A DNA stretch of 64,000 bases, from positions 433,205 through 497,204 of the forward strand of contig NW_001799044.1 of assembly GCF_000165425.1 (NCBI RefSeq). The letters are read 5' to 3'. Position 1 is the stretch's first letter. Each line of letters opens with the position of its first letter. Below are positions 1,302 to 21,701 of the stretch, piece by piece. The notes under the pieces were generated by a model. That model worked only from the letters and a program-made list of their open reading frames with translations, was not told the origin of the DNA and made no database searches. The DNA is from Paramecium tetraurelia (lineage: Eukaryota; Ciliophora; Oligohymenophorea; Peniculida; Parameciidae). The translations under genes and the position numbers were made by a program.

Positions 1302-4300
1302 TCAATTTAAAACCTAATGGGAAGTGATGGGCTCCTCCTGATTCTGATTTAAAAGACCTTGTTCTAACTTGTAAAAATGGCCTTTTAAGTTAACTAAATG
1401 GCCATAATTGCCTTGCTCAATAATTTATCCCTTATCAAATACATAAATGATTTTACAATTCTAAGGATAATTAAAAGATTTACCTTTATTGTAGACATCC
1501 TATGAGCTATTACAATGGAAGTCTTTTCTTTAAGACATTCTTCCAATTATTACTATACCAAAGATTCAACGTTAGAATCTAAAGCACTTGTTGACTCATC
1601 AAATAAATAAATTTTTGAATTTCTCAACAACGCCCTGGAAATAGCAATCCTTTATTTTTGACCCCCTGAAATTAGACTACCTTTGGTACCAACCTTTTTA
1701 TTAAATCCTGAATTTGTTTGATCCTCAGATTGTTCATCCATAATGAATTCATAAGCATGTGATAATTTTGATTTTTAAATGATATCCTCTTCAGTAGCAT
1801 TGGTTTAATTGTATTTAATATTATAAGCAATAGACTCATTAAAGAGTTACGGCTCTTAAGAAACAATCGAGATTTATTACCTAAGAAATCTGAGATCGTA
1901 GTCATATATTGATACACCATCCACTGTAATTTCTCCAGAATTAACATCATAAAGTCTGAAAAGAAGTTAGAATATTGTTGATTTACCACAACCAGAACAT
2001 CCAACTAAACCAACATTATGGCCTGCATCAATTTTAATACTTAAATTTTTCAAAACAATTATGTTTGGTCTTTATGGATAAGAAAAGATAACATTCTTAA
2101 ATTCAATATTACCAAGGATGTTTCTTTTAATTCTTGGATGTTAGAATTTCTATTCTCTTTAATATTCATCTTCAGTCTCTAACAGACTAAAGTAATAGGC
2201 AATTGAATTCTTGGTTTTATTATTATCCGATTAAAAATAAATAGTTTTGGCCCCTCCAACAACAGAAAATATAATGGCTAGAATGGTTTAATAAATAGCC
2301 AAAATTGGGAGATCATCATATATGTTCAGAAGGGTTCCCATCAAGAATAAATACCCATTAACAAAAAATGGTTTCATTTAGGCATACCCAGAACTGAACC
2401 CAACTTAGGCACCAAACTTTTTGACTTATTTAGGAGGCCCTTCTAATTGGTTGGCATATTAATTGACTATAAAGGTCTCTGCTCTTAATGAATAGACTGT
2501 CCTAATATTGGTTAAAGTATCCATCAACAACTTGTTACTATTTGATATATGCCTTTTGGGCAAATGATTGCTATGAACCCACAACATACCTTTCACTTAA
2601 GCATCCCCCTATATATGATATTGGAGCCAAACCAACAGCCAATAGTGTTAATTTCCATGATGATACAAATGATAAGGCAAATCCTACTATGATTGCTGAA
2701 TAATATTGACATTTAAATCCTATGATATTTTGAAAGAATTATTAAACTACTCTGGTATCATTGGTTACTTTAGGAGTTAAGAAACCTATATTATGATTTG
2801 GGTTGTCATAAAAGCTGATTGGAAGTCTTAAAAATTTCTAATAAATTTCATTTTTCATTCTAATAGTTAAGCGTTCTGAATAGACACTGAAACAAAAGCA
2901 TTCTAAAGTACTGGTTACGAAATATATAAACCCTAATATAAGTAGTGTAGTAGCACTGTTTTTAATAGTATCATCTAAAGCAATAATAAATTGTTATCTC
3001 TCATTTTCATCCTTAATGGAATTGACTCTTTGAGGATTATGAATCAATAAATTATCTATAACATCAGCTAAAATTTATGAAAATATTGGGTAAATCGATC
3101 CATTTCCTAGTGCTGCTATAGATCCAATTATAAGATATGGTAATTCTTTATAATTTAACATTATTAAACTCTTAATGCTTTTCCAAAATGACAACTCTGA
3201 TCCATTCTCTGCTGCTTCTACTTTCACTTCTTCATTACACTCCTTATCTAACTATTATTTTACATCAACCTAAGTGTTTATGACCTACACTTTAGATTTT
3301 TCAAATTAATTATTCTCTTAACTAATTATTTTACTTAGTGATCCTCCAGGTATCTTTCTTTATGTTTCCATGTCTAAAAACGTTAGAGTTCCAAAACCAG
3401 TCTCTTCTTTCTATTATTATTTGGATATCAAATAGGAGTAATGTTCACAATTTTATAGTAATTCATTATGAGTGCCTTACCCTATGATTTCTCCTTAATT
3501 AAATACAATGATATTATCACTGTCTTATACTGTAGACAATCTGTGAGCTATTACAATTCTTGTGGTTTTGTTGAATTTCTCATCAATAATTCTAGTTATT
3601 AATGATTCATTTGTTCTGTCTAAAGCACTAGTAGCTTCATCTAAAATAAGAATTTTTGGGTTTTGAAGTAGTGCTCTAGCCAAAGCTATACGTTATTTTT
3701 AACCACCACTGAATTGATTCCCATTAAATCCCACATTTGTATCCAAATGATCTACTAATTCCGATGAATTCATCAAGTTTAACATTGTTATCAATTCCTC
3801 ATCTGTTGCTCTTTAGTTGCCCAACTTTAGATTTTCACGTATTGTGGTATTAAATAAGGCTGGTTCTTACGAAACAATGGAAATTTGCTATCTGAATTAA
3901 TGTGTATCAATTTAACTCAAAGGAATTTGATCTGCTCCTATTAAAATCTACCCATTTTCAATTTCATAGAATTTCAAAAGGAGCTAGCCAATTGTAGACT
4001 TCCCAGAACCACTTTCACCTACTAAAGCTATTTTCTTTCCTTGTGGTATTACAAATGAGATATTCTTCAATACAACGTGATCTGGCTTTGATGGATAACT
4101 AAATTAAATGTTTTAAAGTTTGATATCACCATCAAGATTTTCAAAACTTACTTAATTATTTTTCACCTCCTGTTCTTGACTCTCATCAATTACTTGAAAT
4201 ACTTCCATCGCAGCTAATTTCCCCTTTGCAAAACATGATAGACATGGACCAATCTTACCCAATGACAAACTTCCCATCAATACAGATATAAAAATAGTAC

Positions 4301-15175: not shown

Positions 15176-16672
15176 ATGTAAGTATAGAGATAAGAACATA
15201 GCAAGTTGGCAATAATAGGTAATGTTGATTCAGGCAAATCAACGTTGGTTGGAGTGCTAACAAAGGGAATTTTAGATGATGGAAGAGGAGGAGCAAGAGA
15301 GGTTTAAATTTTAATTTATGCAGCGAGTTTTCAATTACAAGCATGAAAAAGAGAATGGAAGGACATCATCAGTAGCATAAGAAATAATGGGATTCGATGA
15401 GAATTTAAAGCAAGTGCTTCCTGAAAGATTCAATTAAAATAAAAATAAATATTGGAGTCTCGTAGTTGAAAAGAGTAGGAAGATAGTTACATTTTTGGAT
15501 CTCTGTGGTCATGAAAAATATCTAAAAACTACAATATTCGGTTTGGTAGCTATGATACCAGATTATTCTCTGATTATAGTTGGAGCCAATATGGGAGTAT
15601 CAAAAATGACAAGAGAGCATTTGGGAGTGAGTTTATTTTTGAAAATCCCATTTGCAATAGTTTTAACAAAAATTGATATAGCTCCTTAAAATGTCTACAA
15701 TGAGACTATCGAAAATATAAAAGGCTTGATTAGAAGTCCAGCAATTAAGAGAACAGCCGTAGTATTCGATGAAAAAACTGGATTGGATGAAATCGATAAA
15801 TGGGCAGCACTTATGCATGGGAATAATGTTGTTCCAATGTTTCAAGTCTCCAGTGTGACTGGAATTGGATTGCAATAATTGGCTCGTTTCATAAGCAGAG
15901 TACCAAATAGAGATGAAATAAACAAAGCCTATTAAACAGTAAATGATCCATTCCAATTTGACATACAAGAGAATTTTAATGTTCCAGGAGTTGGTGTTGT
16001 TGTAAGTGGAATAGTAAGAAGTGGAAAAGCAGGATTGAATTAACATGCTCTATTGGGACCAGATAAAGGAAAAAGTAAATATTTCATTTATTGTAATTCA
16101 TAGCATTCAAACCAGTAACCATCAAATCTATACACATAAATAGAGTACCAGTTGAATCAGCATAGGTAGGAGAATTCGCCTGTTTTGCTCTTAAGCCATC
16201 TAAGGCTGGAGATAAATTGGACAGAGCTGATTTCAGAAAGGGAATGATTTTAATTGATCCAGCTGTGAAACCTGAACCTGTTCTAGAATTCGAAGTATAT
16301 AATTGTAATTAACTTAGGCTAACATTCATGTACTCCACCATCCAACTACAATGAGTCATGGATATTAAGCAGTTATGCATTGTGGTGTTATTAGATAAGC
16401 TGTAGAAATGAAGAAAATATTCTAACATGAAGTATTAAGAACTGGAGATGTAGACACAGTGAGGTAAGACATTTCAATAATTAAAAAGATTACGATTTCT
16501 TTATGCTGCCGAGTATCTTAAAACTGAATAGATCCTTGTGATTAGAGAAGGCAGAACTAAAATATTTGGATATATATCTAAACTTATTACAGATAAACAA
16601 TTAGAGGATGAAAAGAAAGTTCAAGGAATTCCCTAATAATAATAATAATAATAATAAATATAATAAGTTTGA
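15176..16672 (+). CDS. GTPBP1/GTPBP2-like translational GTPase
   Basis: 465 residues after four introns (22, 29, 23 and 25 nt). The G domain shows G1 GNVDSGKST, the family-specific [11 protein letters not shown] segment, G3 DLCGHEKY and G4 TKID. The C-terminal beta-barrels include [17 protein letters not shown] and REGRTK, which match GTPBP1. GTPBP1 is an EF-Tu-type factor linked to ribosome rescue and mRNA decay. The P-loop begins near residue 16, so the ~150-residue N-terminal extension of animal GTPBP1 is absent. The C-terminus carries eight consecutive Gln codons written as TAA. Stop TGA 16670-16672, only 14 bp before the next gene on the same strand. Confidence 0.9.
16634..16657 (+). repeat. 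(TAA)8 trinucleotide tract coding polyglutamine
   Basis: Eight tandem TAA triplets in frame at the end of the GTPBP1-like gene. With TAA read as Gln they code a short C-terminal polyglutamine tail. Similar TAA/TAG/CAA tracts code Gln runs in the MSP-domain protein (about 6125-6149), the vWA-E2 fusion (about 8300-8340) and the tubulin-like protein (about 18980-19005). Confidence 0.9.
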
Positions 16673-16686
16673 TTATTTTATAATTT

Positions 16687-17790
16687 ATGATTAAAATCAT
16701 TACTCCTTAAGATAGAAGATATTTTGCATAACCAAAACAAGATTAAGTAGTTATGAGGTGTGATCCCTTAGCTATTGTACTCTTTAAGGAATTTAGAGCG
16801 AATCATTGTAATTATTGTTTATAGGGATCATAAACAAATCGTTGTTCAATTTGCAAATAATATTATTATTGTTCTGTTTCTTGTCAAAAGAATGATTGGA
16901 AATAACATAAAAATGAATGTCAATTATTGAGTAAAATTACTAAGGAAATGCCATGTAATATTTTAATACTCATCAGATTATTTCAGAATAATATCGACAT
17001 CTAGAATTTTTATGGGGATGTGGACAAAGACATTGATTAAGAAACCTATTAACAAGTTTTTGATTGTGCTGCTTATATTGTGAAGATAGCTTAATTAGAA
17101 AATGAAACTTTTGCGAAATTGTTGTCAATACAAGTAAAAATTCATCTAAATACATTTACTGTAACTGACATCAATGGTGACACCTTAGGAATTGCAATAT
17201 ATACTCCTGCTAATTTTTTAAATCATAAATGCATCAAAACATCAGCTAATTAAAAAAATGTGGCTAATTGCTCTCATTTTTTTAATCAAAGATAATTAAT
17301 AATAACAACTAATAATTCTTTTGTTTAAAATGAAAATGATCCATAGGAGCTCTGTATTAGTTATGGAAATATTGTTAATTTTAAAGATAGATAAAAGTTT
17401 TTAAAAGCATAATATGGATTTATTTGTGATTGTGATAGGTGTATATAAGAATAAACAAATAGTGAAGAAGAATCGGATTTATTGAATATTAAATAATAGG
17501 AATATCTAACCCTATTGAATTAATAAAAATTCAAAAAAGCATTCACTTTACTAGAGGAGATTATCGCTCTGATGCCTAAGTATTATGATAATGATAGACA
17601 TCCCTATTTAGGATGGAAAATGAATGAAGCATCAAAATTGGGATTTCACTTGAACTATCTTCTAAAAGCTGAAAATTACAGTATTCAGGCTATTAAATTA
17701 TTGGAACCCTTTTATAGTGAAAATGAATAATATAAAGAATTATTGGGTAGATTGAAAGATATCAAGGCTGAAATCAAGATGTAGAAATGA
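16687..17790 (+). CDS. SMYD-type SET/MYND-domain protein
   Basis: 367 residues, no intron. A MYND zinc finger (C-x2-C...C-x2-C...YYYCSVSCQ...H-x3-C) lies at ~45-85. It is inserted near the start of a split SET domain, the SMYD arrangement. The SET core has the NHKC motif (NHxC in the family) and ELCISYGN, and the post-SET zinc site reads CDCDRC. The ~100-residue C-terminus is helical. SMYD proteins methylate lysines on histones and cytosolic proteins using S-adenosylmethionine; the target here is unknown. The start is ATG 16687, 14 bp after the previous stop, leaving almost no room for separate UTRs. A TAA/TAG Gln-rich stretch precedes the core. Confidence 0.85.
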
Positions 17791-17895
17791 TGACATAATA
17801 TATTTTATGTATATAGTTATTGTTCTTAACTTTTATGTCTAATTTTATATATAAAAAGTAAAGCTATATTTTATTAATAATAAATTCTTGAATAA

Positions 17896-19203
17896 ATGAG
17901 AGAAATAATACATATAGGTTTGGGAAATTGTGGAGTTAGAATAGGATGCAAATTTTACGAATAGCTCATCCAAGACTATCAAATAGAGAATAATAGGACA
18001 TGTGAAAAACCAGCTGAAGGAATTGAAGTACACTTTAGTGAAATTGGGGACAAAAAGTTTGTTCCTAGATCAATCTTATGTTCAAGAGATGTCGAGCAAA
18101 TACTGGCTAATCCATAATCACTAATTTTTAATCCTAATAACTATTAATTGGAGTTGGATGAGAGTTTGCGTAAAGAGATGGAAATATGTGATAACTGCCA
18201 AGGAATATAGATTACTCATCATTTAAGCACAGACATCAGTATGTTATAAGATCTACTTCAACATTACGATAAAGTGATTTAGACTTTCACAATCTTTCCA
18301 AATCAGGAGTATGGACATGATATTGTTAAAAGTGCATAAAGTTTGAGGTTTCTCGAAGGATTAAATGTGGTTGCCTTTGACAATTCTGGATTGAATGAAT
18401 ACTATGCAAGATAATATAAATCCACTTTGACCTTTAATGATTACAATGCCTTAGTGGCAACTGTTATGAATTCAGTAACATCTCCAATGAGATAGAGCAA
18501 TACATACAATTTAGAGAAGATGTATTCTGTGTAATCGTAAATGAATGTGGAGGTTTGTAAGTTGGTTTAGGATAAGCAATCTCAAATCAATCTGTAATAG
18601 ATGGGAGATACGAAACTATTGATTGAGACAAATTAGAATGTGAATGAAAAGATCATTTAAGCCACTCTTTTAGCAAGAACCAATCAGTTAACTCCAAATC
18701 AATTGCATTAGTAATTGTAATCAACTGCGAAATCATTTTACAATAACATTATCAATTTAAATTACTAAATATCTCCATACAAACAGGAGATTTTGGTGTC
18801 CTTGTATAAATCCTCTCACATAAAGTTTAAATTGTAATAGTTGAAGAATAACACCTAATTATTATAAACCAGAAAGGCCTTTAATGAGGTGTATCAGTGG
18901 GATGAGAACCAAGGCAATCTTGAATATTTAAATAAATTGGTTTCATTGTGTGATCAAATAGTCAATACTCACTAAGAACAGCAATAATAGCAATAGCAAT
19001 AGAGTTCAGTTTAAGCATCAAGTCCGATATCAGTGTCTGAGAACAAGATGGACAGACAACGGGATTACATTAAATCGTCAGAATAAGTTGAAGCGTCTCC
19101 AAAGAAGCAAATAACTGTATCATAGTCAATTGCTCTGGGATAACCAAATGCTATACAACAGTAGAATGTAGTGGGACAGTAAGTCATATCAAGAAATGGA
19201 TGA
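17896..19203 (+). CDS. Divergent beta-tubulin-like protein lacking T3 and T4 GTP loops
   Basis: 435 residues, no intron, near normal tubulin length. It begins MREIIHIGLGNCGVRIG, matching the beta-tubulin MREI start and T1 loop. Other anchors are VPRSIL, IFNPNNY, CQGIQITHH, FDNSGL and DYNALVATVMNSVTSPMR, all collinear with beta-tubulin. Between IFNPNNY and the following helix about 18-25 residues are missing, removing the GAGNNWA-type T3 loop. The tubulin signature GGGTGSG (T4) is replaced by LSTDISM at ~110-116. GTP binding is therefore doubtful. A Gln run precedes a long Ser/Gln-rich tail instead of the acidic tubulin tail. It may equal one of the divergent ciliate tubulins already named (iota or theta), which I cannot decide. 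Start ATG 17896, stop TGA 19201-19203. Confidence 0.8.
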
Positions 19204-19246
19204 AATTAATAAAATTTAGTTTAAATTTATATATATAATAAAGAAT

Positions 19247-20015
19247 ATGAGTCAAACAATAAGAAGAACAAAATTTCGAATTAAGGATGTAATTGATAGC
19301 AATCTCAATAATCAAGAGCAATCCGCTTAGAAAGCTATATAGTCTACATATATCAAACAAAACGTAGATGACTTCAATTCTCTAAAATAAACTTTGGAAG
19401 ATCGCAAATTAACATTTATAAAATTTGCATTTCAATAGCAGGAACTAATAGAAGATCGAAATTTGGGTCCAGTTCTCACAGGATTGTCCAGACACCAGAA
19501 TATTGGGTCGATGTCAGTTAGTGAATTGATACCAAAATCTTAAATCCACACTTATCTGCTGTAGGCGTAGTAGGACAGACCGAAGAGAGTGTTGAAACGA
19601 TTTGCTCATTGGGAGTGGGACAAGGATTAAGGTCGAGATAAGAATCCAATGAGTTATTAGTTCACATAGAGAAATGAAGCTGAGATAAAATCAAGATTAA
19701 AAAAAAAGGATGGGGAAATTAGTTTGAGGAAGAGGATCCTGTAGAAATGGTAGAAACATTTACCCAGCTTGACAGGACTGAATGAATTTGGAAAACAATT
19801 TACAATGGATCATTCTTCATTGAAAAAGCCTTTTTCATTAAGTCCTTCTCCGAAGCAAGAGTCATATCGTCAAATTACAAATTGGTTGCAGGAATTGGAG
19901 GAGTTGAAACTCGACAATGAGAAAGTGAAGAAGTATAAAGTGATTAAATTAGAAAATTGGAAAGGACATTGCAGAGTTTACATAGAACATGACTAAGTTG
20001 GTGTTTATTTTTTGA
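19247..20015 (+). CDS. Unknown basic protein
   Basis: Begins MSQTIRRTKFRIKDVIDSN and runs ~248 residues, Lys/Arg/Gln-rich, with Trp-containing segments (FAHWEWDKDQ; QKWQKHLPSL). No domain recognised. The end is uncertain. A 22-nt intron (GTTTAC...CTAAG) gives a stop at 20013-20015, 15 bp short of the convergent TMP gene. Without that intron the frame continues to TGA 20105-20107 and would overlap the TMP coding end by 77 bp. I prefer the spliced form. It lies 43 bp after the tubulin-like gene on the same strand. Confidence 0.6.
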
Positions 20016-20030
20016 AGAATTAAATTTATA

Positions 20031-21101
20031 TCAAGCTGATGATCTCTCTTAGAGATAAACCTTAACGTTGGATAACTTGGTAGCTAAGATCTCCTCGACT
20101 TATCTGATGATGGAGATTTCTAATTATCTGTGTTCAGAGTCTTCAGCATATTGAGTTCTCCATGAATCGCATTCGGCTTCCTTTTATTCCTTTCCTGATG
20201 AGGCAGCGTTCAATTCGTCGGTGGCATCTTCCTTTCTCTTCTTTTATAAGTCCAAAGCTTATTAGTTGTCTTGGAGTTATCTTTCAGAGTCTTCTCTGGC
20301 GGCACTCAAGGATTCTCTTTATGAGGCGATTTCGACGACCAAAGCTTCGAAGTCTAATTAGGCTTAGATTTCGGTTTATCTGGCATCTTCAAGGGCTTCA
20401 GCCAATTAATTGCTGACTTCACCTAATTTTCCGAGGACGTTGTTCAATTGTTCAGCTGAGAAGGTTGAGGCAACTTACATAAGAGCAAGGATTGGGTTGG
20501 ATGCACCAATCTTGTTTAATTAGGTCAAGGCAGCCAAGACTTCTTAATCTGGTTGGATTGAGCTCAACTTTTAGATGATGACTTCAACAGCCTCAATGAC
20601 GTTTTCGGTTTCATTCTCGAATCTGATGAAACTTTCAGCATCTTCAGCTCTTTATTCTCTGATTTGGGTTTCTTATTCGTTCAAGATGTCTAATTGGACT
20701 TATTTGTTTTCAACATCTTAGGTTAATTATTCAACCTTGGCACTGAGGGTTTAGATTTCTTAGGTTGATTCGGTGATTTCGTTGGAAGCGAAGTCAATTC
20801 TTCTGTTGTATTAGTAGATTTCTGTTTCGCAATCAACTTCATCTTAAGCGTGCTTTTAGTCAGCTTCTTATTAGTTGAGGATGAGGTTTTCTCTCAATTA
20901 TTGTAACATTTTGGCAATATCTCCCAATGGGGCCTTGTTGTTGTATTAGAGAGCAATTGTGTCTAACAATTTTCTTCCTAATTCGTGTTCTTCCATGGCT
21001 TCCAATTGTGTGAAAACTGCCTTGCTTGGATCGTTGGATCTCTTAACAAAGACAGCTTGTGTGAGTGTCAATCCCAAAAGAGCAATAAGAATCAATTTCA
21101 T
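20031..21101 (-). CDS. Trichocyst matrix protein (TMP) gene 1
   Basis: 356 residues, intact and intronless. A signal peptide (MKLILIALLGLTLTQA) is followed by a pro-region, then long heptad-rich coiled-coil segments with many Gln, Glu and Ala. The family-typical C-terminal block contains RQVEEILATKLSNVKVYL. TMPs are processed from precursors and crystallise in the trichocyst, the secretory organelle that Paramecium fires on stimulation. Codon use is noticeably richer in GC and strongly biased compared with neighbours, as expected for an abundant protein. Start ATG 21101-21099, stop TGA 20033-20031. Three more members, one broken, lie within the next 19 kb. Confidence 0.9.
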
Positions 21102-21701
21102 ATTTAATTTATGTTTCACATCAAACTATTATTCCTTTTTACAATCACACTATTCGTTTTTACTAAATTATTTAATTTCTTTTATTTAACATTTAATCTC
21201 ATCAGATCATAAATAACTATTTCTAACATTCTCAAACCAATTCCAATATTAGATACTAATCCAATTTCTTAATAAGTTAAACATTGTAGTTATGCATGAA
21301 AAATAAAAAAAATATCTTCTTATTTTAAATAAAAAACCTTTTTAATTGATGAAAAGTGTTATTCTAATTAACTCCATTAAGGATTAACAGAATCAGAAAC
21401 TCAATATATGAAGAGAAAAATTATTTAAATAAATCTTTTCTATGGATTATTTCCTTAAATTTAGAATAAGTTTAAGACTGTTAATATCATAATAGTCTTA
21501 AATATTTTAAAAAAAATATTACTATTTTGAATTATTGAATTCTGCTATAGTCTGGATTTATTTGAACAAAATTTTAAATGAATTAGATTATTAAACAATG
21601 AATTTAAATTATTTATTCGATTATTAGTATACTAATACATAAATTTATGATTGGTTGCTATTATAATATATGATTATTATATATTTTTATAATATACATT
21701 T
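21102..21701. other. Intergenic, AT-rich
   Basis: About 600 bp upstream of TMP gene 1 and downstream of the clathrin light chain gene. Very AT-rich with no coding signal. It contains the TMP promoter; no element could be identified by eye. Confidence 0.45.

Follow-up and report, generated by a model that had tools for sequence, protein, structure and literature searches.

A Paramecium tetraurelia tubulin-like protein without the T3 and T4 nucleotide loops

The locus and its reading frame

A 64,000-nucleotide stretch of the Paramecium tetraurelia genome (the window; C91:433205-497204 of the 231 contigs, 69.07 Mb, that were searched) carries P0001, the gene of a tubulin-like protein in which the T3 and T4 nucleotide loops are lost (Table 1). 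In this genome TAA and TAG specify glutamine, and read accordingly (NCBI table 6) the gene is intact over 435 codons from ATG to TGA, as an earlier interpretation made from the letters of the DNA (the sequence-only reading) had described; 35 of its codons are TAA or TAG, decoded as Gln. The length of this frame is not due to chance, since each of the other five frames holds between 8 and 18 TGA codons over the same stretch (11 and 18 in the forward, 14, 12 and 8 in the reverse frames). The sequence-only reading also regarded the gene as intronless and, in fact, the open frame needs no intron, but both runs of a spliced-alignment program set one beyond codon 350, within the tail region (26 nt at codon 376 in the first, 29 nt at codon 351-361 in the second). 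The scoring of this modelling favours an early end, and the open 435-codon frame was retained; nevertheless, the tail, i.e. the last 60-85 residues, is the least certain part of the protein, because the program placed an intron there. Introns are very short in the gamma-tubulin, L004/L005 beta-tubulin and L050 models (25-28 bases), with 27 and 28 bases in two of the three beta-tubulin models; going by the title of a paper, Paramecium beta-tubulin genes reportedly contain two 27-bp introns. All gene models of this work are built on genomic sequence.

Table 1. Positions of P0001, its elements, its neighbours in the window and the other loop-less tubulins of the genome
Feature	Position	Strand	Basis or remark
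P0001, tubulin-like protein gene	17896..19203	+	intact, 435 codons, table 6; intron not required
MREI N-terminus, as in beta-tubulin	17896..17907	+	sequence
T1 region GLGNCGVRIG, opposite beta QGGQCGNQIG	17917..17946	+	alignment
Junction without T3 and surrounding residues (beta about 92-113 in one alignment)	18142..18150	+	alignment
T4 position, HHLSTDISM replacing HSLGGGTGSG	18217..18243	+	alignment
S6/T6 DNSGL, Asn204 equivalent retained	18379..18393	+	alignment
Core helix H7, NDYNALVATVMNSVTSPMRQ, Asn226 equivalent retained	18436..18495	+	alignment, model
Degenerate T7/H8	18496..18555	+	1/19 identical to beta
H11 region with RKAF	18817..18900	+	alignment, model
Gln-rich, non-acidic C-terminal tail	18973..19200	+	composition; model confidence <50 from residue 369
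MYND-finger protein gene, neighbour	16669..17790	+	likewise lost from the duplicate locus
Uncharacterised neighbour gene	19247..20107	+	start set by eye within ORF 18884-20107; 43 nt past the tubulin stop
L050, tubulin-like, 324 aa	C157:358867-359860	-	without T3 and T4
L103 (L103:1473-2472), tubulin-like, 324 aa	C156:120772-121765	+	without T3 and T4
L107 (L107:1154-2432), beta-like tubulin	C166:87653-88931		degenerate T1, T3, T4
L049, beta-like tubulin	C159:416949-418263		degenerate T1, T3, T4

Tubulin homology and the elements lost and kept

P0001 matches the tubulin/FtsZ GTPase domain of Pfam (PF00091; E 1.4e-13, 52 bits, cut-off 33), its PDB matches are beta-tubulins (best E 3.1e-18), and with a profile built from 25 further tubulin models of the genome it reaches 89.7 bits. 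The sequence-only reading had claimed collinearity with beta-tubulin and had allowed that a profile search might detect no tubulin homology; the homology was detected, and the motifs quoted for the collinearity are present. Residues 1-205 alone reach 97.4 bits with the profile of the genome's other tubulins, and residues 206-360 reach 9.0 bits, a score equalled by one of 2000 shuffles, while the Tubulin C-terminal domain (PF03953) has no match in P0001 up to E 1. These scores point to strong homology over the N-terminal domain and to a weak, though probably genuine, one past it.

The best sequence score of P0001 is with beta-tubulin (63.8 bits). It shares with canonical beta-tubulin (L004 and PDB chains) the collinear order, the MREI start, a T1-like turn, the S4 string CQGIQITHH, the DN of S6 and helix H7, but it is only 23-27% identical by alignment, lacks T3, T4, the M-loop and the acidic tail, and has a degenerate T7. 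Taking the genome's own beta-tubulin as reference, and element borders and GTP-contact positions from tubulin structures, identity is retained in S1 (5/8), T1/H1 (8/19), S4 (6/8) and H7 (8/20). MREI may serve as a signal for co-translational autoregulation, as the sequence-only reading proposed. The sequence-only reading was right that GAGNNWA is deleted and that LSTDISM stands in place of GGGTGSG: none of the 11 residues of T3 is aligned, and T4 has six of nine positions aligned with a single identity. Past these loops, T7/H8 is fully aligned (19/19) with one identical residue, the M-loop has three of 14 positions aligned and none identical, and 19 of the last 75 residues are Gln, the net charge of this stretch being +1 where the beta tail has -9.

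The tubulin signature, defined as [SAG]GGTG[SA]G (PMC10056924), is absent from the protein and from the three forward frames, and a regular-expression search of 17701-19300, in all forward frames, returned no string resembling GGGTGSG or GAGNNWA. A missed exon restoring GGGTGSG, looked for here in the genomic sequence, is likewise not visible in the forward frames. That P0001 is homologous to tubulins and has lost these loops is practically certain. It is tubulin-derived by homology and, by the signature definition, not a tubulin GTPase.

Placement and the other loop-less tubulins

Four trees were calculated: tree 1 with 27 rows (without the near-identical L001, L003, L005, L006, L029 and L037 and the doubtful L033 and L048), tree 2 with the same exclusions plus L045, L046, L047, L050 and L103, and trees 3 and 4 with 18 and 16 rows, respectively, in both of which P0001 was trimmed to residues 1-362. 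P0001 falls outside the alpha-like tubulins in all four, on a very long branch (2.1-2.6). Its partner, where shown, is L043 or L043/L047 (bootstrap 69-88%, trees 1-3), a pairing marked in trees 2, 3 and 4 as long branches coming together. By the approximately unbiased (AU) test, union with gamma-tubulin was not rejected (p 0.263 in tree 2, 0.278 in tree 3), union with the clade of beta L004 and L025 was rejected in tree 2 (p 0.028) and not in tree 3 (p 0.267), and unions with L044/L049 (0.27), L039/L040 (0.293) and L044/L049/L107 (0.41) were not rejected either. The assignment of P0001 to one tubulin family failed because of the long branches in all four trees. Gamma-tubulin L028 scores nearly as high with P0001 as beta-tubulin does (62.4 bits) and shares with it FPNQ and FNPxN strings, identified by eye, but has GAGNNWA and AGGTGSG, of which P0001 has neither.

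No close paralogue of P0001 was found in the genome search, the next protein match having an E of 1.4e-8 (33% over residues 1-84). Among viral contigs, 600 pattern matches to P0001 and 101 matches to four tubulins of the genome used as queries yielded no confirmed relative. The same four queries gave 46 tubulin loci in prokaryote genomes; 18 of them were compared with P0001, and the 19 proteins they supplied are 19-23% identical to it. In a metagenome assembly of Myxococcales, two tubulin genes lie side by side (L053:1495-2799 and 2829-4151), and tubulins also occur in two Polyangia assemblies (L052, L055); these would be either bacterial tubulins outside Verrucomicrobia or contamination.

We modelled at least 36 tubulin genes in the genome (best-scoring candidates only; the count omits L009, which is the window, L104, the same gene as L050, and the partial model L033, and C54:1335, where Tubulin_C matches in part close to the start of a contig, also lies outside it). 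Seven of the 36 fail a loose glycine-loop pattern (P0001, L049, L107, L050, L103, L047 and L048), and in the first five the T4 glycine loop is absent. The failure of L047 comes from a partial model that starts past a frame break at T4, and for L048 a doubtful model gives GGGTNSG. L047 (C4, about 137100-138450, minus strand) is a relative of L043 whose frame breaks exactly at the T4 codons, by a pseudogene, an assembly error or an unremoved segment. L048 (C26:4599-5735, plus strand) is an alpha-tubulin of degenerate sequence; six introns, several with odd lengths, are required by its model, and it is probably a pseudogene.

L050 and L103 lack T3 as well as the T4 glycine loop, as P0001 does. 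They form a duplicate pair; both genes have 324 codons and a single 25-base intron at a common position, their proteins are 86% identical, and they are under strong purifying selection (dS 0.87, dN 0.071, dN/dS 0.082, bootstrap 0.051-0.123); other tubulin pairs give dN/dS of 0.025 (gamma), 0.061, 0.187, 0.208 and 0.502, two pairs being dS-saturated. L050 is a more distant tubulin than P0001, since its Pfam Tubulin match (9.5e-8) is at the 33-bit cut-off, below which L103 falls (1e-4), and its PDB matches are weak (best E 0.1). L107 and L049 also lack the T4 glycine loop (HSLSDKFCGIS and HSTYDYSSGSS) but, unlike P0001, retain T7/H8 and H11-H12 recognisable by eye; they are sisters (100/99), and their relative L044, next to them in the trees, retains GGGSGSG. 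Both pairs stand on lineages separate from P0001 in the best tree. In tree 4, the AU test rejected P0001 with L049/L107 (p 0.013), nearly rejected all five loop-less tubulins together (p 0.061), and did not reject P0001 with L050/L103 (p 0.20) or L049/L107 with L050/L103 (p 0.269). By these phylogenies the loops would have been lost three times in the best tree, with two losses as the minimum favoured by the AU tests.

Proposed function, alternatives and significance

We propose as the likeliest reading, with a probability of about 0.5, that P0001 is a partner protein with a tubulin fold that works independently of nucleotide, as a monomer or in a heteromer, and has a structural or regulatory role. 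The protein seems to keep the tubulin core (S1-H1, S4 to S6, H7 and H11), and AlphaFold2 predicts a complete tubulin fold, while the loops for phosphate binding (T3, T4) and catalysis (T7) have been lost, as have the M-loop and the acidic tail. Without T3 and T4 the phosphates would lack a seat, and GTP binding would be nil or weak; without T7, H8 and the M-loop, longitudinal and lateral microtubule contacts look impossible, and P0001 could presumably not join a protofilament by either longitudinal face. Its partners are perhaps tubulins or tubulin-binding proteins. The suggestion of the sequence-only reading that such a protein might cap microtubules is not favoured, because a cap needs one good longitudinal face and neither is kept, both T3 and T4 of the plus face and T7/H8 of the minus face being degenerate.

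P0001 might instead be an ordinary member of a type of ciliate tubulin that is already catalogued (iota, theta or kappa), a serious possibility that falls somewhat short of even odds. Tetrahymena thermophila has three listed iota-tubulin genes and Ichthyophthirius none, and Ichthyophthirius lacks tubulin isoforms that T. thermophila and P. tetraurelia have (PMC3341644); in addition, the title of a paper names multiple tubulin forms in Tetrahymena and Paramecium. Membership of such a type is compatible with a role as a nucleotide-independent partner.

Several points weigh against that role. The function is deduced from sequence; the input alignment of the AlphaFold2 model consisted of 19 tubulins, which biases it to the tubulin fold, and its mean predicted local distance difference test score is 64.8 (43-54 for residues 201-250). 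With its duplicate deleted, the constraint on P0001 itself can be judged only indirectly, and the selection on L050/L103 says nothing direct about it, these being more distant tubulins. P0001 also has, at 7.7 per 100 codons, the weakest codon periodicity among the 11 tubulin genes measured (8.2-21.1 in the others), and between 12% (at a divergence of 0.1) and 32% (at 0.05) of neutral runs leave an unconstrained frame without TGA, so that a recent relic is possible.

Such a relic would be a divergent tubulin under relaxed constraint, the other duplicate having been lost and the frame of P0001 being still unbroken. Whole-genome duplication is visible in this genome as paralogous blocks, and at the duplicate locus on C171 the MYND gene and the tubulin gene are gone, leaving a short tubulin 3' remnant, with the flanks retained: a GTP_EFTU gene, which we take to be eIF2-gamma-like (92% identical DNA over 1635 bases), and a downstream stretch (96% over 1211). 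Duplicates of neighbouring genes have dS of 0.31 and 0.10, i.e. about 0.05-0.15 per lineage; where dS could be measured for other duplicate pairs of tubulins, it lies between 0.21 and 1.46. In a neutral simulation of substitutions only, the proportion of TGA-free runs was 32%, 12%, 2%, 0.7% and 0.6% at 0.05, 0.1, 0.2, 0.3 and 0.4 substitutions per site, so the intact frame is compatible with recent relaxation and could have persisted neutrally since the last duplication; the very long branch also fits a relic. However, the 435-codon frame is clean at about 25% identity, the codon periodicity exceeds all 1000 shuffles, P0001 keeps a coding-type composition (GC 0.325, against 0.188 in the decayed duplicate stretch), and another loop-less pair, L050/L103, is under strong purifying selection. 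We consider a relic unlikely.

The neighbour with dS 0.10 is the window ORF 20031-21119 (minus strand), which has no Pfam match and presumably resembles trichocyst matrix proteins; its value, against 0.31 for the adjoining gene, hints at gene conversion.

It is rather improbable that P0001 binds nucleotide weakly, via T1, T5, Asn204 and Asn226, and is incorporated at specialised places of the microtubule system, for instance basal bodies. T1 is retained in part, as are the equivalents of Asn204 and Asn226, but most phosphate-contacting positions are gone, the Glu181 position is Lys, and both longitudinal faces are degenerate; other divergent tubulins act at Paramecium basal bodies (PMC4746876). 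A gene-model or assembly artefact, with the loops encoded in an exon that was missed or a segment that was excised, is rejected as far as the sequence allows and seems highly improbable: tiny introns and programmed DNA excision make small errors possible in principle in Paramecium, and the modelling program itself set the tail intron of 26 or 29 nt, but that intron lies far from the loops, the motifs occur in none of the three forward frames, removal of the two GTA..TAG/CAG candidates (20-35 nt, codons 194 and 214), the only ones within the ORF, could add no loop sequence, and the loops are absent rather than interrupted.

Divergent ciliate tubulins with altered GTP sites have been published. 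Tetrahymena BLT1 and BLT4 resemble P0001 in their divergence, in tails without the EEEE modification motif and in altered GTP-site residues, but they are 65% and 56% identical to canonical beta-tubulin, respectively, and occur in microtubule structures, and the GTP-site changes reported for them are substitutions rather than the loss of loops (PMC3382179). In Sarcocystis neurona, divergent delta- and epsilon-tubulins have also lost the GTP-binding signature; compared here by description only, they are of another type and lineage and are read as possibly drifting non-functional (PMC10056924). We found no description of P0001 or of loop-less Paramecium tubulins in the literature searched, subscription papers being mostly outside its scope and sources partly available, nor, in what was accessible there, a non-polymerising tubulin-fold role assigned to eukaryotic tubulins.

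The dN/dS of L050/L103 supports, indirectly, the existence of functional loop-less tubulins, and this pair is arguably a stronger case of a functional pseudo-tubulin than P0001. Tentatively, and with less than even confidence, we suggest that P0001, L050/L103 and L049/L107 may represent a set of functional, nucleotide-free pseudo-tubulins, which would have lost their loops in two or three lineages and would now be non-polymerising.

In textbook terms, tubulin is a GTPase and needs its nucleotide for its fold. Since other genes have lost the GTP loops too and L050/L103 are kept under strong selection, our analysis points to a possible use of the tubulin fold in Paramecium outside the building of microtubules. 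If this is true, the tubulin fold would be separable from GTP and reusable, and Paramecium makes this uncoupling of fold and GTP testable.
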